DNA of 32,999 nt, taken from positions 1 to 32,999 of the forward strand of contig WFZC01000376.1 of NCBI GenBank assembly GCA_015489765.1, in the 5' to 3' direction. The DNA is from Desulfobulbaceae bacterium (GTDB taxonomy: Bacteria > Desulfobacterota > Desulfobulbia > Desulfobulbales > Desulfobulbaceae). This document shows, one piece after another, positions 8,523 through 32,461 of this stretch; positions within the stretch are counted from its first letter, which is position 1, and each line of letters opens with the position of its first letter. Both the position numbers and the translations under genes were made by a program. The notes under the pieces were generated by a model that was not told the DNA's origin, did no database searches, and was given only the letters and a program-made list of their open reading frames with translations.

Positions 8523-9194
8523 TTGAAAACATGTGTAATTGGTGACATCCATGGCTGCCTTGAATCGTTGACCAGTCTGCTCGATATGGTGGTCGACAAG
8601 GCGGACACCGTGGTTTTTCTGGGAGATTATATTGATCGAGGCCCAAAGTCACAACAGGTGATCACCACCCTGCTTCAGCTTAAAAAAACAACCGGCCTAC
8701 ACCTGGTTTTTTTGAAAGGCAATCACGAATTCATGTTCCATAATTATCTCACCGGAGCTGATCGTTCAATATTTCTTCGGGTCGGCGGCCTGCAAACACT
8801 GCACAGTTATTCCATTTCCCCGGATCAGGGTGGCAATCTACTCCATTGCCTGCCGTCCGATCACAGATATTTTTTTGAATCTCTGGTCCTCACCCATGAA
8901 GACCGACACGGTATTTATGTCCATGCCGGCTTGCAACCGGGTGTACATCTGAGCAAACAGACCCCGGACTGGTGCCTCTGGGTCAGGGATCGGTTTATCC
9001 GTTCTTCTTTTGACTTTGGCAAACCAGTAATTTTCGGGCACACTGTCTTTCCAGAACCCCTGATGGAAAGCAACAAAATCGGCATAGACACCGGGGCGGT
9101 GTACGGCGGCAGGCTGACAGCCCTCTTGCTTCCGGACATGGAATTTATCCAGGTCAAGGGTGAAAAACATCATCCTTTTCCCTATTCTCTGTAA
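8523..9194 (+). CDS. PPP-family metallophosphoesterase (protein phosphatase / ApaH-like)
   Basis: This is a two-metal phosphoesterase that removes phosphate from proteins or cleaves dinucleotides; the family contains PrpA/PrpE phosphatases and ApaH. The 223 residues show the complete PPP signature: GDIHG (7-11), GDYIDRG (about 36-42), GNHEF (about 66-70), a later conserved His in HEDRHGIYVHAGL, and FGHTVF. The start is a TTG codon, chosen because AAGGA lies eight bases upstream and GDIHG must be close to the N-terminus. It diverges from the polysaccharide operon with only 81 bases between. A role in dephosphorylating the neighbouring tyrosine kinase is possible by location only; PPP enzymes generally act on Ser/Thr. 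Confidence 0.8.
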   Translation: MKTCVIGDIHGCLESLTSLLDMVVDKADTVVFLGDYIDRGPKSQQVITTLLQLKKTTGLHLVFLKGNHEFMFHNYLTGADRSIFLRVGGLQTLHSYSISPDQGGNLLHCLPSDHRYFFESLVLTHEDRHGIYVHAGLQPGVHLSKQTPDWCLWVRDRFIRSSFDFGKPVIFGHTVFPEPLMESNKIGIDTGAVYGGRLTALLLPDMEFIQVKGEKHHPFPYSL

Positions 9195-23295: not shown

Positions 23296-23838
23296 CTATT
23301 CTCTCCCCTTGATAGATTCTTTTAATCCATTAAGTTGTGTTTTTATACTCCCATCAAGCACCAGGTCACCTACTTTGGCAATTACCCCACCAATAATGGA
23401 GGGATCGACACTGGTCTCAAGTATAACCTTATTCCCCGTGATCTTCTCCAGGGCCTGCTGGATCTTTCCCTTCAGGGTATCGTCAAGCTCAATGGCAGAA
23501 ACCACTGAACCGTGACTGATATTCTGTTCCTGGTCAACCATGATCCGCATTTCTGCCGCAATATCAGGCAAAATGTCCGCTCTCTTTTTCTCAACAAGCA
23601 GAGCAAGAAACCTGGCCATGATTGCATCAGCCTTTGCCAACTCTCCGATTTTAGCCATCACCTTCAGCCTGGCTTCTACCGGATACAGGGGATTAACCAA
23701 CGCATTCTCTACGGTTTCATCCTTATAGAGCTCGGCAATGGCGCTCAATACCTCGCTGTACTGTTCATTTTTCCCATCCTCTTTACCGAGGGAGAAAAGA
23801 GCCTTGGCATATCGTCGTGCTAAGATTGTCTGTCTCAC
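23296..23838 (-). CDS. atpH: ATP synthase F1 subunit delta
   Basis: Delta links the peripheral stalk to the top of F1. The 180 residues begin with the usual [18 protein letters not shown]. The C-terminal part has [20 protein letters not shown], the conserved delta/OSCP motif. Its start overlaps the atpF stop by four bases. Confidence 0.97.
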
Positions 23839-24653
23839 TGTACCGCACCTACTCTTTCAAGATACTGTTCAGTAATCGTTACCTGATCCGCAGGGGTCAG
23901 GTTTTTAACGATCAACTCTTCAGCCATAGCGGCTGCCTGCTCGGCAACCTCATCGCGCAACTTCCGCTTCGCATCAACCAATTCAGCCTGCACAGCAGCC
24001 TCAGCCTGACGCTTGATATCTTCTGCCGCCTGCTCAGCTTCTTCAAGGATACGAACCTTTTCCGTTTCAGCAAGGGCAACAGCCTTTTCAACAATTGTCT
24101 CCATCTCTTTTTCCATGCCGGCAAGACGGGCTTCAAACTCCTTGTACTGACGCTCGGCTTCATCACGCTTTGCCTGCAGCTCTTCCAGCTCGGCCTTTAT
24201 CTGCTGACGACGGCCCGCCAGCCCGGAGCTGATCGGCTTGGCCAGGAACTTGACCAGAATGACAACCAGAGCCAGGAAGTTCGCAGTCCGCCAAAAAAGG
24301 TCCTTGAGCTTGGCAGGCGTGATCATCGGATGATGCTCACCTTCCCCATGCTCTCCGGCCGCTTCTCCATGCCCCTCACCGCCAGCAAGTCCCTCTTCTA
24401 TCCTCTCGGCCCCTGCCTCCACCTCGGCGCTGTGTTCACTGGCAAGTTTTTCCTCGTGAACAGCGACAGCAGTTTCACCATGCCTGGCTTCAGCTGCTGC
24501 CATATTTGCCTCATGGGCGGCCTCTATGCCGTGCAGTGCCTGATCATCAGCACCAGCGGCCGCCCCATGGCCAGCACCAAAGGCCATAGGCGCCGCACAC
24601 AGGGCCGCGACCATCAGTCCCGGCAAAATAATTTTTACGATTCGAGCTCTCAT
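23835..24653 (-). CDS. atpF: ATP synthase Fo subunit b with signal peptide and His-rich N-terminal extension
   Basis: This peripheral-stalk subunit holds the stator against rotation. Only residues about 115-272 resemble ordinary subunit b: a membrane helix at about 122-139 (FLALVVILVKFLAKP) followed by a long charged coiled coil. Before it lies a signal-peptide-like segment (1-26, cleavage near AFGA). Residues 27-109 are rich in Ala, Glu, Gly and His, with ten histidines, ending GEHGEGEHHPM. The N-terminus of subunit b faces the periplasm, so the extension should be periplasmic. The total of 272 residues compares with about 156 in E. coli. Signal-bearing b subunits are known in some Desulfobacterota; the acidic His-rich linker is unusual. 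It overlaps both neighbouring genes by ATGA. Confidence 0.9.
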   Translation of the reverse strand: MRARIVKIILPGLMVAALCAAPMAFGAGHGAAAGADDQALHGIEAAHEANMAAAEARHGETAVAVHEEKLASEHSAEVEAGAERIEEGLAGGEGHGEAAGEHGEGEHHPMITPAKLKDLFWRTANFLALVVILVKFLAKPISSGLAGRRQQIKAELEELQAKRDEAERQYKEFEARLAGMEKEMETIVEKAVALAETEKVRILEEAEQAAEDIKRQAEAAVQAELVDAKRKLRDEVAEQAAAMAEELIVKNLTPADQVTITEQYLERVGAVQ

Positions 24654-25081
24654 GCTTCCAGACTCCTTCCAAGTATCTTTCCAGCCATTTCCTGGGCAAA
24701 CCCAGCCACATTATCCCCAAGCTCTTTTCTGACCTTCTCGATCTGGGAACGCAACTCCGCAAGCTGTTTTTCTTTTTCACTTTCCGCCTCCTTACGAATG
24801 GCGGCCAGCTTTTCAGCACCTGCAGCCTGCGCCTCACTTCGAGCACCATCAAGAGCTTTTTTTGCCTGCATACTCGCTTCATGCATCTTCTTATCGACTT
24901 CCGCCTGACGATGACGGGCATTTTCTTCAAACTGTTCAACATCATGTGCAAGCGAATCCAGCTTCTGCCGCCGCTTTTCCAGGATACCAAGCACCGGCTT
25001 GTAAAGAATAGCATTGAGAATAACCATCATTACAATCATATTAACAATATGAATAAACAATGTGATGTCTAAGGTGATCAT
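24650..25081 (-). CDS. ATP synthase Fo subunit b' (second b-type subunit)
   Basis: This second peripheral-stalk subunit forms a heterodimer with subunit b. The 143 residues begin with a membrane helix (TLFIHIVNMIVMMVILNAIL) and the typical YKPVLGILEKRR turn. A highly charged coiled coil follows to the end. It is the first gene of the operon, with its stop overlapping the atpF start. The b'/b pair is usual in photosynthetic bacteria and in several Desulfobacterota. The ring and a subunits (atpE, atpB) are not adjacent and must be encoded elsewhere. Confidence 0.93.
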   Translation of the reverse strand: MITLDITLFIHIVNMIVMMVILNAILYKPVLGILEKRRQKLDSLAHDVEQFEENARHRQAEVDKKMHEASMQAKKALDGARSEAQAAGAEKLAAIRKEAESEKEKQLAELRSQIEKVRKELGDNVAGFAQEMAGKILGRSLEA

Positions 25082-25328: not shown

Positions 25329-26324
25329 TCACCAGGACTCTCGTAGCCAGCGCACAAGTCTTCTCATCCCCTCGCCTGTGGAAACATCCGGTACATAACC
25401 CAATATCCTGGAGGCCGCATCATGGGAAAACCAGTGTGACCTTGCAAGCTGCAGGGCGACAAACCTTGTCATGGGTGGCTCATCTTTTCTTTTCAGAGCT
25501 GAATAAATCAGCTCCAATACTCCGCCAACGGCAAAGGCCACCGCCAAGGGGATCCTTTTCCGTACACGGTCGATATCAAGCTCGGCAAACAGGCCATTGA
25601 TCCAGTGCCAGAGAAAAACAGGCTCCGACTGGCCGATAAAAAAGGCACGTCCACCGGCATCCCCCCTGGAGAGCAGGTTATCAGCCGCCAGCAGATGCGC
25701 CTGGACCACATTATCTATATAACTTATATCAACACGGTTACTGCCCCTGCCGACTATCTTCAGCCTGCCAGCCCGGCCCCGTTCAAGCAGCCGGGGAACA
25801 AGATGGGGATCTCCCGGTCCCCAGACAAGATGGGGCCTGATGGCCGTTGTCCGCAACCCTCCTGCATCGGCATCAAGGACCATACGCTCGGCCACGATCT
25901 TGCTGGTCACATAATGGCACAGCGGTTTCCGGGCATAGGGTGTTTTTTCATCAACGCCCTCAAGATTGCCGGCACCGGAGACCACGGACGGGGTTGAGGT
26001 ATAAACCAGGGCAGGCACCCCGTTTTTCCGGCATGCCTGTATGCAGGCCGCCGTTCCCTGGATGTTTGTTTTTTCGTACTCCTGCCAGGGACCCCAGATT
26101 CCCGCCTTGGCCGCCACGTGAAAGACAAGATCAGCCCCCTGCAGGGCCTGATCCATAAAACTTTGGTCGGAGATGTCACCCTGGAGACAGGACACTCCCT
26201 GCGCCTCAAGCTCGGGATACCTCGAGCGGCCGATGACCGTTACCCGGTCACCGGCCGCCAGCAGCCGCCGGACAATCGCCGAACCGATAAAGCCGCCGCC
26301 GCCGGTGACCACAACCCTTTTCAT
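25329..26324 (-). CDS. oleD: OleD: 2-alkyl-3-oxoalkanoate reductase (extended SDR)
   Basis: OleD reduces the beta-keto acid made by OleA to a 2-alkyl-3-hydroxy acid with NADPH, the second step of head-to-head olefin synthesis. The 331 residues form an NAD-dependent epimerase/3-beta-HSD-type protein. It has the dinucleotide motif GGGGFIGS at 8-15, the active-site region VYTSTPSVV with Ser110/Ser113, and catalytic Tyr138 and Lys142 in HYVTSK. A hydrophobic patch near residue 255 (IPLAVAFAVGGVLELIYSAL) suggests membrane or complex association. It is the last gene of the operon, 24 bases after oleC with GGAGG before the ATG. The other Ole genes beside it make this assignment strong compared with a generic sterol dehydrogenase-like SDR. 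Confidence 0.9.
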   Translation of the reverse strand: MKRVVVTGGGGFIGSAIVRRLLAAGDRVTVIGRSRYPELEAQGVSCLQGDISDQSFMDQALQGADLVFHVAAKAGIWGPWQEYEKTNIQGTAACIQACRKNGVPALVYTSTPSVVSGAGNLEGVDEKTPYARKPLCHYVTSKIVAERMVLDADAGGLRTTAIRPHLVWGPGDPHLVPRLLERGRAGRLKIVGRGSNRVDISYIDNVVQAHLLAADNLLSRGDAGGRAFFIGQSEPVFLWHWINGLFAELDIDRVRKRIPLAVAFAVGGVLELIYSALKRKDEPPMTRFVALQLARSHWFSHDAASRILGYVPDVSTGEGMRRLVRWLRESW

Positions 26325-26348
26325 GGTACCTCCACGTACATATTATCT

Positions 26349-27983
26349 TCACAATCCATCTTCACAGCCCCTGGCGCCGAGCCGTTTTTCAGCCCACCGG
26401 GCAAGTTTTTCCCTGAAGATTTTGGCATTATGGCGAATATCCACCGGAAAGCCGGGATGAACAAGAAAGGTGGAAATTCCTTTTGTCAATGGATATTCTC
26501 CGGCAAGTCTTTTCAACTCCGCCAGCAGCTTATCCTCCCCGACACCCTCCTTTTTCTCCACCAGGACAACGGGGACCTGGTTGCCCGGTCGGCCGATTCC
26601 GACCAGGGCTGATCTGAGAACATGCGGATGGGTATTGAAAATCCCTTCACAACAGATCGAATACATGGGCCCGTCGGCAGCATGGACAACATGCGCCTTG
26701 CGGCCGCAGAACCAGAGACGCCCCGACGGGTCAAAGTAGCCCATGTCTCCCATCCGGTGCCGGAAAGAATCACCGTCGGCTATCTTGGCCATCTCCGTTT
26801 CAGCCGGATTATGGTCATAGGCCCTGGTTACCACCGGCCCCTTGACCACTATCTCGCCGATCTCTCCGCAACCGAGTTTTCGCACCTGTTGCCAGTCGGC
26901 TATCGACCCCGCAACCGGCCTGATGACAGCTATTGTAATACCAGGCAGAGGCCGGCCCACGCAGACCCCTTTGCCTTCAGCCGTCAACTCCCAGCACTCG
27001 CGCAATATCTCGCGCCCCTCTATTGACGCTATGGGCAGGCTTTCCGTGGCCCCGTAGGGGGTATGGATCTCACCATCAGGTGGAATAATTTTCGCAACCC
27101 GCTCCACCAGTTCGCCGGAAACCGGGGCCCCGGCCATCAGAATTTTTTGCACCGGCAGGATAATTCCCTCGTCCAGGCAGTAGCGACTGACCACATTCCA
27201 GATCGCAGGACTGCCGAATGAATAGGTCACCCTTTCATCGAGCAGGGTACGGATAAACTTTTTCGGATCGACCCGGGCCGGCCGGCTCGGATCCATGTCA
27301 GGAATAACAGCGCGGGCACCAAGGGCGGTGGAAAAAAGGGCAAACAACGGAAAGGCCGGTTGGTCCACCTCCCCCGGCCCGATGCCGTAATAGTCCTGAA
27401 TTAAGCGTAACTGGGCATGAAAGATGCCATGGGTGTACTGGACGCCCTTGGGCGGCCCGGTGGAACCGGTGGTAAAAATAATGGCGGCCAGGTCATCGGC
27501 GGCTGCCACAAAATCCGAATTGTCCGGCACGGGTTTCATGGATGACAGAGATTTTCCCATTACGCCGAAACCATGGCCAACGCAAATCCGCATGCGTACG
27601 GTGGCAAAGGGCCCGGGAAACAGACGGCTGAACAGCACGGCCCTGGGAATACCAATAAGGATATCCGGTCTGACCGACTGGATACAGCGCAAAAGATTCC
27701 GGTACCCCATGCCAGGATCAATGAGAATGACCACGGCCCCGATGGAAAAGAGGGCAAAGGTAAGGCCGATAAACTCCATGGAAGGCCGGACCATCAACAT
27801 GACCCGGTCTCCCGGCCCGACACCGCCCCCCCGCAGGCGGGCGGCAAAATCCCGGCGGCACCGGTCGAGCCCGGCAAAGGAGAGACGCTGATAACGCCCG
27901 CGTATTTTATGGACAAGGGCTGTTTCCCCTCCTCTTTCAAGGGCAGCCCTTTGCAGCACAGCGGCTATATTCCGATTATCCAT
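26349..27983 (-). CDS. oleC: OleC: olefin beta-lactone synthetase (AMP-binding family)
   Basis: OleC uses ATP to convert the 2-alkyl-3-hydroxy acid into a cis-beta-lactone. The 544-residue protein is an acyl-CoA synthetase homologue. It has the AMP-binding loop IIFTTGSTGPPKGV at about 165-178 and the adenine-site motif YGATES at about 315. A third motif, MGDMGYFDPSGRLWFCGRKA, lies near 430, and the C-terminal lysine-bearing block reads DIRHNAKIFREKLARWAEKR. The ATG at 27983 is chosen over an upstream TTG because GGAAG lies at good spacing. This start overlaps the oleB stop by eight bases. OleC homologues cluster apart from ordinary ligases; gene order oleB-oleC-oleD supports the call. Confidence 0.92.
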   Translation of the reverse strand: MDNRNIAAVLQRAALERGGETALVHKIRGRYQRLSFAGLDRCRRDFAARLRGGGVGPGDRVMLMVRPSMEFIGLTFALFSIGAVVILIDPGMGYRNLLRCIQSVRPDILIGIPRAVLFSRLFPGPFATVRMRICVGHGFGVMGKSLSSMKPVPDNSDFVAAADDLAAIIFTTGSTGPPKGVQYTHGIFHAQLRLIQDYYGIGPGEVDQPAFPLFALFSTALGARAVIPDMDPSRPARVDPKKFIRTLLDERVTYSFGSPAIWNVVSRYCLDEGIILPVQKILMAGAPVSGELVERVAKIIPPDGEIHTPYGATESLPIASIEGREILRECWELTAEGKGVCVGRPLPGITIAVIRPVAGSIADWQQVRKLGCGEIGEIVVKGPVVTRAYDHNPAETEMAKIADGDSFRHRMGDMGYFDPSGRLWFCGRKAHVVHAADGPMYSICCEGIFNTHPHVLRSALVGIGRPGNQVPVVLVEKKEGVGEDKLLAELKRLAGEYPLTKGISTFLVHPGFPVDIRHNAKIFREKLARWAEKRLGARGCEDGL

Positions 27984-28845
27984 GGCAGGCTTCCACAAAA
28001 GGCGTTATCCGCCCGAGAGCTTCGGGCAGCACATCCTCGAGCACATAATGGCCGGCCTGTTGATACCAGCAGGCCTCTGCCCGTGGAAAACGACGGCGCC
28101 ACTCCTCATAAAAGGGACGGTTAAAGCAGAAATCCTGTCCACCCCAGATAATCAGCATGGGCTTTTCCCGCAGACCGGCAAGAGAGGAGGCCACGCCCTG
28201 CAGGGTATGCCATGAGGGATGGCGGCTGTGCATGGGGATATCGCGGATAAACCGGTCGATGGCCACCCGGTTGCGCCAACTGTCATAGGGGGCGAGAAAT
28301 CCCTCCTTCACCCCGGGATCCATGCGCTTGGCAACGGCCATGAAGGTGGCGGCCCGGGCAAACCCGTTCAGGCCGCGCACCAGCAGGGAACCGATAAGGG
28401 GCTGGCGGCAGACATTTATCCGCAGGGGAATCCGGGTGGAGGGAAAGGCCGCACTGTTGAGGACCACCAGGCCGGCAATTCGATCCGGATGCATACCGGC
28501 CCACCCCATGCCAATGGCCCCGCCCCAGTCATGGACAACCAGCACGCAAAGCTTTATCCGCAGATGATCGAGGAGCAGGCCGAGGTTTTCGATATGCTTT
28601 TTCAATCGGTAGGGATAGCGCCCCGGCTTGTCGGACAGGCCACAGCCCATGTGGTCCGGGGCGATGACCCGATAGCTGTCCCTCAACCCGGTGATCAGGT
28701 TTCGGTACAGGTAGGACCAGGATGGATTGCCGTGCACCATGACCACAGCCGGGCCGTTGCCCTCATCCACATAAGATAGAACATGGTCACCGATGGGGAA
28801 CCGTTGCGACGCAAACGGATACTGATAAAGTTGCTCCTTCACCAC
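27976..28845 (-). CDS. oleB: OleB: beta-lactone decarboxylase (haloalkane-dehalogenase fold)
   Basis: OleB removes CO2 from the beta-lactone to give the final cis-olefin. The 289 residues have the alpha/beta-hydrolase fold of the haloalkane dehalogenase group. The oxyanion region is HGNPSWSYLYRN (39-49), the nucleophile is Asp106 in VVHDWGGAIG, and an acid residue is plausible at Asp238 (GGQDFCF). The base is His266 in QQAGHYVLED. Asp instead of Ser as nucleophile is what separates OleB and the dehalogenases from common lipases. It starts with GTG overlapping the oleA stop, so the pair is coupled. Alone it could be read as a dehalogenase; the neighbours decide for OleB. Confidence 0.92.
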   Translation of the reverse strand: MVKEQLYQYPFASQRFPIGDHVLSYVDEGNGPAVVMVHGNPSWSYLYRNLITGLRDSYRVIAPDHMGCGLSDKPGRYPYRLKKHIENLGLLLDHLRIKLCVLVVHDWGGAIGMGWAGMHPDRIAGLVVLNSAAFPSTRIPLRINVCRQPLIGSLLVRGLNGFARAATFMAVAKRMDPGVKEGFLAPYDSWRNRVAIDRFIRDIPMHSRHPSWHTLQGVASSLAGLREKPMLIIWGGQDFCFNRPFYEEWRRRFPRAEACWYQQAGHYVLEDVLPEALGRITPFVEACHG

Positions 28846-29873
28846 TCAATCCCGAGCATCAGGGAATTTATTCCCGAGCCGATCCCGAGGATGGCGGCGC
28901 GGTTGCCCGGCAATAACCGCCCCTCGGCCAGGCCCATGGCCATGGTTATGGGGGCGGAGACCGATCCGACATTGCCGAGATGCGGCAGGGTCTCGAAATT
29001 TTTCCCCTCGTCCAGCTGCAGCCGTTCAAACAACAACCGGGCATGGGCCCGCCCCACCTGGTGGCAGAAAAAACAATCTATGGAACCGCCATCCCATCCG
29101 AGTTCATGACCAAAATCCTGCCAGCAGCGATGGGCCGTCTCGATACCCTTTTCAAGCAGCAATTCCGAATCGGTGGACATCAAGGTGCCCTGTTCCGCAT
29201 TCTGGCCGCCCTGGCAGAGATCATTATGATCGGTATGGGCCCGGCAGCTGCCGCCGACAAGTTTATGTCTGGAATCGAAAATCCGGCTGTCACTCATCAC
29301 CAGGGCCACGGCTCCGGAGCCAATGGTCAGGGAGGCAAAGAGCGGCTTTACCATTTTTCTGGTCAAGGTCGTATCGGCAAGCATGTGATTGATGGTTGAT
29401 TCCAGCAGATCCTCGGCAGTCTCGCCGGCCACGACCAGCCCGCTTTTCACCTGCCCCAGTTCAATCATATTGGCCAGGGTAATCATGCCGTTGAGAAAAC
29501 CGAGACAGGCATTGGAGATATCAAAAATCTGGCAGCTTTCGGGCAGGCCCAGGCCCCGATGGACAAAAGCGGCGGTTGCCGGTTCCATCATGTCCCGGCT
29601 GACCGAAGTAAACAGCAGGCAACCGATGTCTGCGGCCGGGATACCCGACTGGGCCAGCGCTTTTTTCCCCGCCCGAACAGCGCCTTCACTGGGCCGGGTA
29701 CCGGGATGCCACAACCGGCGGCTCCTGATTCCGGTCATCATCTCCAACCGGCCCGTGGGGAGTTTCAGCCTCTCATACAGGGGGGCGAGCCGCTCTTCAA
29801 GGACGGCCGAGGTCAACTCGACCGGTGGCAGCTCATAGCCGAAACCGTGCAGACAAACATGGGAGTATCGCAT
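28839..29873 (-). CDS. oleA: OleA: acyl-CoA/ACP head-to-head condensing enzyme (thiolase family)
   Basis: OleA joins two fatty acyl chains by non-decarboxylative Claisen condensation to a beta-keto acid, the first committed step to long-chain olefins. From the ATG at 29873 the protein has 344 residues, close to the 338 of Xanthomonas OleA. The catalytic set is present with matching spacing: Glu97, Cys123 (SNACLGF), His271 (FFCHQVGRAH) and Asn301 (HLGNVGS). The 26-residue Glu-Cys and 30-residue His-Asn distances match those known for Xanthomonas OleA (Glu117/Cys143, His285/Asn315). The Glu separates OleA from FabH. A longer frame from a GTG at 29954 would start inside a hairpin and adds an odd N-terminus. 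The ATG lacks a clear ribosome binding site. Confidence 0.93.
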   Translation of the reverse strand: MRYSHVCLHGFGYELPPVELTSAVLEERLAPLYERLKLPTGRLEMMTGIRSRRLWHPGTRPSEGAVRAGKKALAQSGIPAADIGCLLFTSVSRDMMEPATAAFVHRGLGLPESCQIFDISNACLGFLNGMITLANMIELGQVKSGLVVAGETAEDLLESTINHMLADTTLTRKMVKPLFASLTIGSGAVALVMSDSRIFDSRHKLVGGSCRAHTDHNDLCQGGQNAEQGTLMSTDSELLLEKGIETAHRCWQDFGHELGWDGGSIDCFFCHQVGRAHARLLFERLQLDEGKNFETLPHLGNVGSVSAPITMAMGLAEGRLLPGNRAAILGIGSGINSLMLGIEW

Positions 29874-29910
29874 AAAAACAGGGTGGCCTGTGGTCCAATC
29901 AAATAAATAA

Positions 29911-29974
29911 TTATCCGAAAATGGCGCAGAGCGCCGAATAATGTGTAGCACCACGCATATTGCGTGGTGCTACA
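29911..29974. repeat. Two adjacent hairpins upstream of oleA (REP-like or regulatory)
   Basis: TGTAGCACCACGCA and TGCGTGGTGCTACA (29944-29957 and 29961-29974) form a perfect 14-pair stem with a TAT loop. Next to it GGCGC-AGA-GCGCC (29923-29935) forms a second stem, flanked by ATTTTCGGATAATTATT on the minus strand. They lie in the 165-base gap between the DUF1232 gene and oleA, inside the operon. They could weaken or stop transcription, stabilise mRNA ends, or be a dispersed palindromic repeat. The motif GCTCTGCG..ATTTTCGGATAA is shared with the tandem repeat at 9240-9431. Confidence 0.75.
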
Positions 29975-30279: not shown

Positions 30280-31080
30280 CTACCCCACAACTCCGGTAAC
30301 AATGTCCCGGTCAAAATAGTTCATTCCCATGCCGGCATCCACCACCACGCATTGGCCGGTGATACCGGAAGAACGGGGGGAAAGCAGAAAGGCGGCCACA
30401 TTGGCGACCTCACCGGTCTTCAGGGCCTTTTTCCGTAAAATCGCCTTTTCCGCATAGAGATACGAATCCACATACCCGGGAATACCGGCCGAGGCCGAGG
30501 TCTTGAGCAGACTGGGGCAAACAGCATTAAAACGAACTTCGGAAAAGGCGGAAAAACTCTTGGCCAGGAAACAGAGTGAAGATTCAAGTGCTGCCTTGAT
30601 CGGCGCCATGTAACCGTAATTTTCCGCCGCCATTCTGGTCGTGGAGATGGAGATGGTGACCACGGAACCATCCTTTGCCAACAACTCCTTGAAATGGTTG
30701 GCAATGGCTATCAGGGAGAAACAGGATATATCCACGGCCTGGAGAAAATCCCTTTTCAGGGTCTGGTGAAACGGTTTCATGCCGTCGGAATAATTGGCAT
30801 AGGCGATGGAATGAACCAGTCCGGCCACCGGCTGCTCAACAGAAGCGGCTATTTCATCCCTGACCCGGACGATATTAGCCTCATCCTCGACATCACAGAC
30901 AAAGACCGGACTCTTTGGAAAAAGTCTGCCCGCTGTCCGCGCCCGTTCCCTTGAGCGGACCACATGAATCACCTCGGCCCCGGCTTCGACAAGGACCCGG
31001 CCAATGGCACAGGCCACCGACTTCTTGTTGGCAAGGCCGAAAACGACTATTTTTTTTCCTTTCAGCGCCAGAAAATCCAT
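30280..31080 (-). CDS. FabI-like enoyl-ACP reductase (SDR)
   Basis: It probably reduces trans-2-enoyl-ACP or another enoyl thioester, the last step of a fatty acid elongation round. The 266 residues begin [21 protein letters not shown], the FabI-type cofactor loop that replaces the usual SDR GxxxGxG. They include LVHSIAYAN at about 88-96. The catalytic Tyr155 and Lys162 have the FabI spacing Y-X6-K in [14 protein letters not shown]. The C-terminal half has [14 protein letters not shown]. Residues around the substrate pocket ([20 protein letters not shown]) differ from E. coli FabI, so a housekeeping role is not certain. It is separated from the FabZ-like gene only by an inserted repeat element and is followed directly by the DUF1232 gene. 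Confidence 0.85.
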
Positions 31081-31285: not shown

Positions 31286-31721
31286 TTTTCACCATGCAGG
31301 AAAAATCAACCTGGACCGCCACCCTGGCGCCGACCCGGACAGCACCCCGGAGGAACCAGGCCGGGCCGACCTTTTCCCTGATTTTCGCCTCGATGGCGAT
31401 GGTTGTTCCCGGCCTGACCTCCCGTTTGAACTTTGCTCCCTGGATCCTGGCCAGCACCGGCACCCCGGCGGCCGGACCGGACCCTTCCGAACTCCTGCCG
31501 ATAAGAACAGCTCCGGCCTGGAATACCGCCTCGCAGAGCAGGACCCCCGGCATGAGAGGATACCCCGGATAATGGCCGCGGAATATATCCAGGTCGGGAT
31601 CAAGATACTTTTCAGCCCTGATCTCCCGGTCGCTCAGTTCTACAACCCGGTCCAGCCAGAGAAACGGCGGCCGGTGCGGGATTGTCTCTTCAATAAAGTC
31701 CGACTCCGTCACATCCATCAC
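31278..31721 (-). CDS. FabZ-like 3-hydroxyacyl-ACP dehydratase
   Basis: It dehydrates 3-hydroxyacyl thioesters to enoyl thioesters. The 147-residue hotdog-fold protein shows IPHRPPFLWLDRV near the start and FRGHYPGYPLMPGVLLCEAV at 48-65. The catalytic His50 and Glu64 have the 14-residue spacing of E. coli FabZ. It differs in the C-terminal half from housekeeping FabZ, which usually has GDQL-type motifs. Its start overlaps the FabG-like stop as ATGA. It lies just before the inserted repeat element, which falls exactly at its stop codon and leaves the protein intact. Confidence 0.9.
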   Translation of the reverse strand: MMDVTESDFIEETIPHRPPFLWLDRVVELSDREIRAEKYLDPDLDIFRGHYPGYPLMPGVLLCEAVFQAGAVLIGRSSEGSGPAAGVPVLARIQGAKFKREVRPGTTIAIEAKIREKVGPAWFLRGAVRVGARVAVQVDFSCMVKKD

Positions 31722-32461
31722 AAGCCACCGGTGACCTCGAGAACACTGCCGTTGATATAGGCCGCGTCTTCGCCTGCCAGAAAAAGGACGGCAGCGGCCA
31801 CCTCTTCAGGGGTGCCGAAACGGCGGGCCGGAACCATCTTTTTATATTCCCTGATTTGAGACTCGGTCAGTCCCTGGAGGAAGTCGGTGTCGATAAAACC
31901 GGGCGAAACACAGTTGACGGTTATCTTTCGTTTGGCAACCTCCTTGGACAGGGCCTTCATCATACCGACCTGGCCGGCCTTGGAGGCGGCATAGTTGGCC
32001 TGGCCGGCAAAGCCGAGATGACCCATGGGCGAGGTGATAAAGATAATGCGGCCATATTTCCGCTTCATCATCAGCTGGACACCGAACTTGGCCATGGTGT
32101 AACATCCGGTCAGGTTGACATCTATGACCCGCTGCCAGTCCTGCCGCTTCATCATGGCCAGGGCGCCGTCCCGGCGGATACCGGCACCGGCAACCAGAAT
32201 ATCCAGGGTTTCAAACTCCTCCTCCACCCGGAGATACAGCTCCTCGACCGCACCATAATCGCTCACATCCACCCGGTGCAGCTGCAGCCGCTGCCCGTAT
32301 TGCGCGCAGGAACCGGCAAAGGCGGAAGCCGCTGCGTCATTGCCTCCGTAGACCCCGATAACCGTTGCTCCGGATTTCAGCAGGGCCAGGGTAACGGCCC
32401 TGCCTATACCACGGGTTGCGCCGGTAACAATGGCCCTGCGACCGGTAAAATCAGTCAACAT
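31718..32461 (-). CDS. FabG-like 3-oxoacyl-ACP reductase (SDR)
   Basis: It reduces 3-oxoacyl thioesters with NADPH. The 247 residues have the Rossmann motif TGATRGIG at 13-20 and Asn116. The catalytic triad is Ser144, Tyr157 and Lys161 in FITSPMGHLGFAGQANYAAS followed by KAG. The FabG-type block SPGFIDTDFLQGL follows, and the C-terminus is NGSVLEVTGGL. The ATG directly follows the amphi-Trp gene stop with no gap, and its own stop overlaps the FabZ-like start, so translation is coupled through three genes. Confidence 0.92.
   Translation of the reverse strand: MLTDFTGRRAIVTGATRGIGRAVTLALLKSGATVIGVYGGNDAAASAFAGSCAQYGQRLQLHRVDVSDYGAVEELYLRVEEEFETLDILVAGAGIRRDGALAMMKRQDWQRVIDVNLTGCYTMAKFGVQLMMKRKYGRIIFITSPMGHLGFAGQANYAASKAGQVGMMKALSKEVAKRKITVNCVSPGFIDTDFLQGLTESQIREYKKMVPARRFGTPEEVAAAVLFLAGEDAAYINGSVLEVTGGL

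Follow-up and report, generated by a model that had tools for sequence, protein, structure and literature searches.

The atpF gene in a 32,999-nucleotide stretch of DNA from a Desulfobulbaceae bacterium (the window, meaning the whole stretch that was analysed) very probably encodes an ATP synthase subunit b in which a signal peptide and an exported, histidine-rich tail precede the b helix. The protein is a lineage-specific variant of a known subunit. An earlier note, made from the window alone, had described an extension of this kind, and we compared it with close relatives and with loci from across the Desulfobacterota. The coordinates of the features are given in Table 1.

Table 1. Features of atpF, its product and the adjoining genes in the window
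Feature	Position	Strand	Basis or remark
atpF (subunit b)	24653..23835	minus	ATG start, 272 aa
Shine-Dalgarno GGAAGGAG	24663..24670	(-)	9 nt before atpF start; read directly from the sequence
ATGA overlap of atpF' stop and atpF start	24650..24653	(-)	sequence reading
Sec-type signal peptide, about residues 1-26	24576..24653	(-)	own heuristics and AlphaFold helix 2-23
Periplasmic tail, acidic and rich in His, Ala, Gly and Glu (residues 27-115, with 10 His)	24309..24575	(-)	composition and relatives
Tail residues 40-79, low-confidence predicted helix	24417..24536	(-)	AlphaFold block, pLDDT about 61-72
Subunit b transmembrane helix, about residues 119-138	24240..24299	(-)	PF00430 from 119; limits by reading
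Ordinary b stalk, residues 139-272	23838..24239	(-)	profile and structure matches
atpF' (subunit b'), without signal and without extension	24650..25081	(-)	PF00430 match
atpH (delta/OSCP), next gene of the operon	23296..23838	(-)	PF00213 match

The atpF gene, its start codon and its family

The gene lies within the atp operon, in which delta (PF00213) and b' (PF00430) were identified by profile and the alpha, gamma and beta genes by reading of the open reading frames (ORFs). Translation of atpF' and atpF is likely to be coupled through the ATGA overlap. The profile results showed that PF00430 covers only residues 119-248 of AtpF (66.5 bits, above the cut-off of 28), whereas TIGR01144, the ATP_synt_b equivalog, scored 51.6 bits, under its cut-off of 65.5. 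AtpF is a true but divergent b subunit, filed as such by Pfam and operon and not by TIGR01144. The beginning of the PF00430 match at residue 119 agrees with the earlier statement that the extension precedes the normal stalk helix. Assignment to the alternate or N-type ATPase b subunits was rejected (TIGR03321, 59.8 bits against a cut-off of 224.7).

Like subunit b of bacterial F-type ATP synthases (PF00430; E. coli and Bacillus PS3), AtpF has one membrane helix and a long stalk helix, and its gene stands beside those for b', delta and alpha. The solved b chains among the PDB matches (E up to 1) are 152-184 aa long or belong to a 446-aa fusion, and their alignments to AtpF start at residue 120 or later; no solved structure among these matches covers the His-rich tail. 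NF006612 (PRK09174), which we take to be the model of alphaproteobacterial b', aligned from residue 71 of AtpF (from 64 in the relative L104) and thus included part of the tail, at 16.7 bits, far below its cut-off of 183. Alphaproteobacterial b' subunits begin like a signal peptide and carry a short His/Glu/Ala segment; NF006612 would place such a segment on b', whereas the tail in the window is on b. Chloroplast subunit b (CF0-I) carries, when first synthesised, a short N-terminal extension, which is then removed, and we know of no His-rich tail in it.

The AtpF core was found in 54 of 57 genomes, that of the window included. The best 80 of 162 loci from genome contigs, together with the window, gave 81 rows (hereafter the best-80-of-162 set), 78 of which had readable N-termini; L109, L113 and L114 are cut by contig ends and lie outside the counts on 78. 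In this set, 69 of the 78 readable rows had ATGA at the chosen atpF start. The Shine-Dalgarno sequence, the ATGA overlap and the conserved signal make the long start well supported on sequence grounds. The earlier note had itself raised the possibility of an internal start near residue 110. Such an annotation error, in which translation would begin at Met110 and the upstream part would not be made, is highly improbable. By reading, residue 110 is indeed encoded by an ATG, which belongs to a PMIT motif and is preceded by a GGAAGG-like stretch. However, PM[ILF]T occurred in only 17 of the 81 rows of the best-80-of-162 set, and 31 of the 81 had no ATG, GTG or TTG in the 25 codons before the core, so that initiation at Met110 cannot be the general case. 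The conserved signal and the translation signals at the long start also argue against it.

No second copy of the tail was found in the genome at E 10. Five second b copies were fetched from relatives (L056-L060); they start MLIDWFTV, are N-type by reading, and none has an extension. None of six plasmid-borne relative records aligned before residue 109, and the plasmid relative that was fetched, from Pseudorhodobacter turbinis, has a b that starts MSIDWITV and is also N-type by reading.

Antisense to atpF and atpF' runs a 363-aa open frame (window 23817-24908, plus strand), which is most likely a shadow of the coding strand. An OleD/OleC/OleB/OleA-like long-chain olefin gene set (25329-29954, minus strand) immediately precedes the ATP synthase operon, in the same orientation. 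Its OleA-like gene exceeded the NF006720 cut-off (444 against 285 bits) and its OleC-like gene that of NF006754 (636 against 478 bits), and the specific OleC and OleD models were matched only below their cut-offs. Beside the Ole-like genes, FabI-like and FabG-like short-chain reductases were recognised by ORF reading (30280-31080 and 31718-32461, minus strand). The c subunit has Met at the position where Na+-coupled c subunits presumably carry Gln as the Na+ ligand; because of this Met, the coupling ion of the ATP synthase is likelier to be H+ than Na+.

Signal peptide, topology and the b' partner

Residues 1-26, which the earlier note had read as a signal peptide, consist of a positive n-region, a hydrophobic core and an SPase I-like end, and our own heuristics found the Sec/SPase I features (n-region, h-region and AxA-like site). 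In the best-80-of-162 set, a start followed by a hydrophobic N-terminus was present in 78 of the 81 rows, the n-region was positive in 68 of 78, and an SPase I-like motif was found in 70 of 78, compared with a mean of 48 and a maximum of 59 in 500 shuffles. The conserved hydrophobic N-terminus, the charge and the motif enrichment bear out the reading as a signal peptide. A lipoprotein reading was rejected, as a lipobox was found in none of the 78 readable rows of the same set.

In these 78 rows, the tail was negative in 77 and neutral in one, and the charge after the membrane helix was positive in all 78. Because the n-region is positive, the tail negative and the charge after the helix positive, the topology would be N-out/C-in, and comparison across the best-80-of-162 set supports a predicted periplasmic position of the tail, in keeping with the earlier claim that the extension lies outside the membrane. 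Known b subunits have an N-out topology. The same topology of b subunits is described in the part of PMC6377231 that was available.

The signal might also stay uncleaved, in which case b would have two membrane helices and the His would be carried on a periplasmic loop between them. We regard this as unlikely, since the SPase I motif is enriched over shuffles. The AlphaFold model does keep helix 2-23, although this is expected in either case; 8 of the 78 rows of the best-80-of-162 set lack the SPase I motif used, and in the window the choice of the -3/-1 residues is ambiguous by reading (AFG or FGA). With the signal cleaved, as we prefer to read it, signal peptidase I would remove it and leave the tail free in the periplasm.

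Among the 80 loci (best 80 of 162), we located the neighbouring b' gene in 77. Its first Met aligned with the Met of the window b' in all 77, and none of the 77 had a His-rich segment before this Met, although in 11 of them the upstream frame was open for at least 20 codons, where a longer start is formally conceivable. The window b' and these 77 loci agree with the earlier note that b' has no similar extension. Because b' lacks the tail, each enzyme would carry one.

Distribution of the signal and the tail across the phylum

An AtpF match was found in 225 of 247 genomes spread over the phylum. We read 87 loci from the phylum search, 27 newly returned and 60 chosen, as a rule one from each family, though some families were sampled repeatedly, and 84 of the 87 had a signal-like start. 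The earlier note had counted the signal as part of the oddity; it is instead the norm in the sampled phylum, being present in 77 of the 80 loci L150-L229 (L175, L190 and L207 lack a signal-like start and were not counted in the phylum figures for the tail). In these 77 loci, the linker after residue 26 had a median of 18 residues, with at least one His in 62 and at least four His in 19. AtpF proteins of other Desulfobacterota families thus have a similar Sec-type signal, and the core of AtpF is 45-62% identical to those of other families of the order, but they usually have a short Gly/His linker or almost none, unlike the long His-rich tail.

The stop-to-stop frame, which is an upper bound, was at least 235 aa in 36 of 36 genomes of the window's own family, and 195-200 aa in 16 of 22 genomes of another family of the same order (f5). 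Nine of the ten f5 loci read had N-parts of 36-43 residues with 0-1 His, and the tenth (L240) gave no N-part. In this family (L053, L148, L232-L239 and L241), the signal is followed by few residues, for example AGDGAIPKEK. Five further own-family loci had N-parts of 78-99 residues with 2-11 His. The comparison of AtpF across the Desulfobacterota, of the kind the earlier note had suggested, thus shows the signal as a habit of the whole phylum, mostly with a short linker, and confines the long His-rich tail to particular clades.

The long tail marks a clade of Desulfobulbales, which includes cable bacteria and cultivable Desulfobulbus, and recurs in a second group. Desulfobulbus elongatus and D. 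rhabdoformis are two cultured species that have it. The second group lies within L150-L166, and several of its tails end in HHGLTHSQ-like motifs; L156, L159, L160 and L163 have short tails and stand outside it. We scored a tail as long and His-rich when it had at least 28 residues after position 26 and at least three His, a cut-off of our own. This state was found in 97 rows, with at least 13 changes on a 178-row core tree, a count that takes in borderline rows and uncertain starts such as that of L177. The tree leaves out L149, L155, own-family L002-L032, L143-L146 (repeats) and 20 further loci, and the starts of L155, L177 and L209 are probably wrong. L209 (G220:C1:2100213-2101459) has b' and b in one open frame, with the b signal-like segment directly after the b' end, and is either a b'-b fusion or a case of an unrecognised internal start.

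A joint clade of the long tails of the window's clade and those of the second group was disfavoured (p-AU 0.03) on a 66-row subset that was chosen after the tree had been seen. A p-AU of 0.0007 was obtained when the short-tailed L167 and L182, which lie inside the second group, were counted as outsiders, and this value was discarded because such counting makes rejection too easy. The comparison gives moderate support to separate origins of the long tails in the two groups. The trait is labile, whether by gain or by loss.

Composition of the tail and its possible role

All ten His of AtpF fall between residue 27 and the membrane helix (residues 29, 41, 47, 58, 66, 74, 95, 102, 107 and 108), exactly the number that the earlier note had given for an acidic segment after residue 26. 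Residues 27-115 also contain 17 Glu, 2 Asp, 2 Lys and 2 Arg, giving a net charge of -15 without His, together with two Met and no Cys. The ten His observed in residues 18-115, a segment set by our script's cleavage guess (residue 17), which is too early, compare with 2.0 ± 1.4 after shuffling of bases (maximum 8 in 2000 shuffles) and 3.1 ± 1.5 after shuffling within codon positions (maximum 9 in 2000). The average His content of 22 other genes of the window was 2.3%. One 89-aa stretch of ORF 8523-9194, whose product is metallophosphoesterase-like by reading, also has ten His; because an unrelated gene of the window reaches this number, comparison with relatives is the stronger test.

The tail has 89 residues in the window and typically 40-90 in relatives. 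In the best-80-of-162 set, the N-part exceeded 60 residues in 73 of the 78 readable rows. It was 60 residues or shorter in L103, L116, L128, L130 and L139; the start of L116 is uncertain, as for this locus and for others including L075, L081, L098, L100 and L101 the script placed the start at an internal ATG, and the true one could be farther upstream. L103 (Desulfobulbus sp. CSMAG_1289, 1090-1671; 77% core identity) has 11 residues and no His after the signal, and L130 (Desulfofustis glycolicus) has 11 residues and one His. These two are natural near-absences of the tail, usable as natural controls. Because the tail is nearly absent in L103 and L130, and has only two His among its 54 residues in L097, it is dispensable.

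We tentatively propose that AtpF has an exported N-terminus that holds a tethered, pH-titratable and possibly metal-binding polyampholyte beside the periplasmic inlet of subunit a. The single tail of each enzyme would sit at the proton inlet, close to the loop that subunit a exposes to the periplasm, where its Glu/His polymer would titrate near neutral pH. It would act as a tethered local buffer of protons and cations at the inlet, with incidental metal binding, and would tune the enzyme without being essential. In some lineages, it would probably have grown from a short SGGEGGHGG-type linker. The tail of Desulfobulbus alkaliphilus (L090) has only three His, and this one species weakly fits a role in near-neutral titration. 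Against a buffer function, most sampled phylum lineages manage with short linkers, of the median length given above for the 77 loci. The loop of subunit a is variable among species and hence unlikely to belong to the core proton pathway (PS3; PMC6377231, in the part available). It is improbable that the tail goes further and works as a proton antenna, in which one of the two stalk subunits would bear a disordered Glu/His brush that captures protons and feeds more of them to the inlet of subunit a when the proton-motive force is low. Such an antenna would have arisen more than once in anaerobes living close to the thermodynamic limit.

Two other readings are strong and close rivals of the buffer. 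One is that the tail is a drifting spacer, in which slippage-prone low-complexity DNA (GHG, AAE and HAA units) expanded once the N-terminus was periplasmic, with no function beyond solubility and with His common because Gly/His/Ala codons seeded the repeats. This is possible, if doubtful. The wide variation of the mature linker (15-104 residues by the script's cleavage guess), the tandem-like units in L125 and L121 and the near-absence of the tail in L103 and L130 favour it, as does the drift of the sequence: in 33 pairs with cores 73-97% identical, aligned tail identity averaged 70%. However, the His fraction is held. It was 10.7% ± 2.9% after residue 26 (range 3.7-17.3%) and never zero in 73 of the 73 rows with N-parts above 60 residues, drawn from the best 80 of 162 loci and the window, compared with 0.1% in the core. 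The acidic charge in 77 of 78 rows of the same set and the same composition in the second group also speak against mere drift.

Retention was measured in 33 disjoint pairs, and each residue was in its turn hidden from the alignment scoring (blinded), so as to gain no credit from it. Retention was 0.65 for His, 0.62 for Ala, 0.61 for Gly, 0.55 for Glu and 0.51 for Asp. His was thus kept more than the nine other main residues pooled (+0.12, 95% 0.05-0.19), which counts against the spacer, and hardly more than Ala and Gly. In an ordinary alignment with nothing blinded, His led by 0.15 (0.09-0.20), and with only His blinded the advantage was gone (difference -0.04, 95% -0.13 to 0.05). Because the advantage vanished when His alone was blinded, we call the effect modest. 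These comparisons suggest that composition is kept while the tail sequence drifts, with His best retained by a modest degree.

The other rival is a metal trap, in which the tail would bind Ni, Zn, Cu or Fe in the periplasm for storage or for shielding of the inlet; we consider it somewhat unlikely. The ten His stand in HGE, EHH and HEE spacings, and the nickel exporter RcnA of cable bacteria, which belong to the same family, contains a His-rich loop that has expanded, although that loop is predicted to be cytoplasmic (PMC11247825, in the part available). The RcnA loop is, beside NF006612, the closest analogue of the AtpF tail; the loop and the tail share a lineage-specific His-rich expansion in one family and differ in that the former belongs to a nickel exporter and is predicted on the cytoplasmic side, whereas the AtpF tail would be periplasmic. 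Against the trap, a fixed metal-site spacing was not seen by eye across relatives, the window tail has no Cys and two Met, and no metal-handling gene was recognised adjoining atpF by reading of the window ORFs.

The AlphaFold model of AtpF, built with 60 sequences, showed the signal helix and a confident membrane-stalk helix from residue 113. Within the tail, pLDDT was below 50 at residues 28-37 and 88-109, and the helix at 40-79 was doubtful. The model of Desulfogranum mediterraneum L088 gave low-confidence coil (pLDDT below 50 at 31-63 and 66-84) and no helix in the tail. The tail is thus predicted to be largely disordered. The idea that the His line one face of the predicted helix and bind metal there was rejected, as they did not cluster in this way (P = 0.35). 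The weaker clade test left the odds of these readings unchanged because they rest mainly on composition and topology.

No description of the His-rich AtpF tail and no experiment on it was found in searches of an open-access library, and the cable-bacteria papers, in the parts available, contain nothing on it. ATP synthase subunits are usually regarded as conserved cores, and here a large, exported, titratable tail stands on one stalk subunit. Should the tail affect how protons are supplied or how sensitive the enzyme is to metals, it would regulate the enzyme from the periplasm in a way for which we found no open-access account. If it does nothing, it would clearly illustrate how a signal peptide allows low-complexity sequence to grow.
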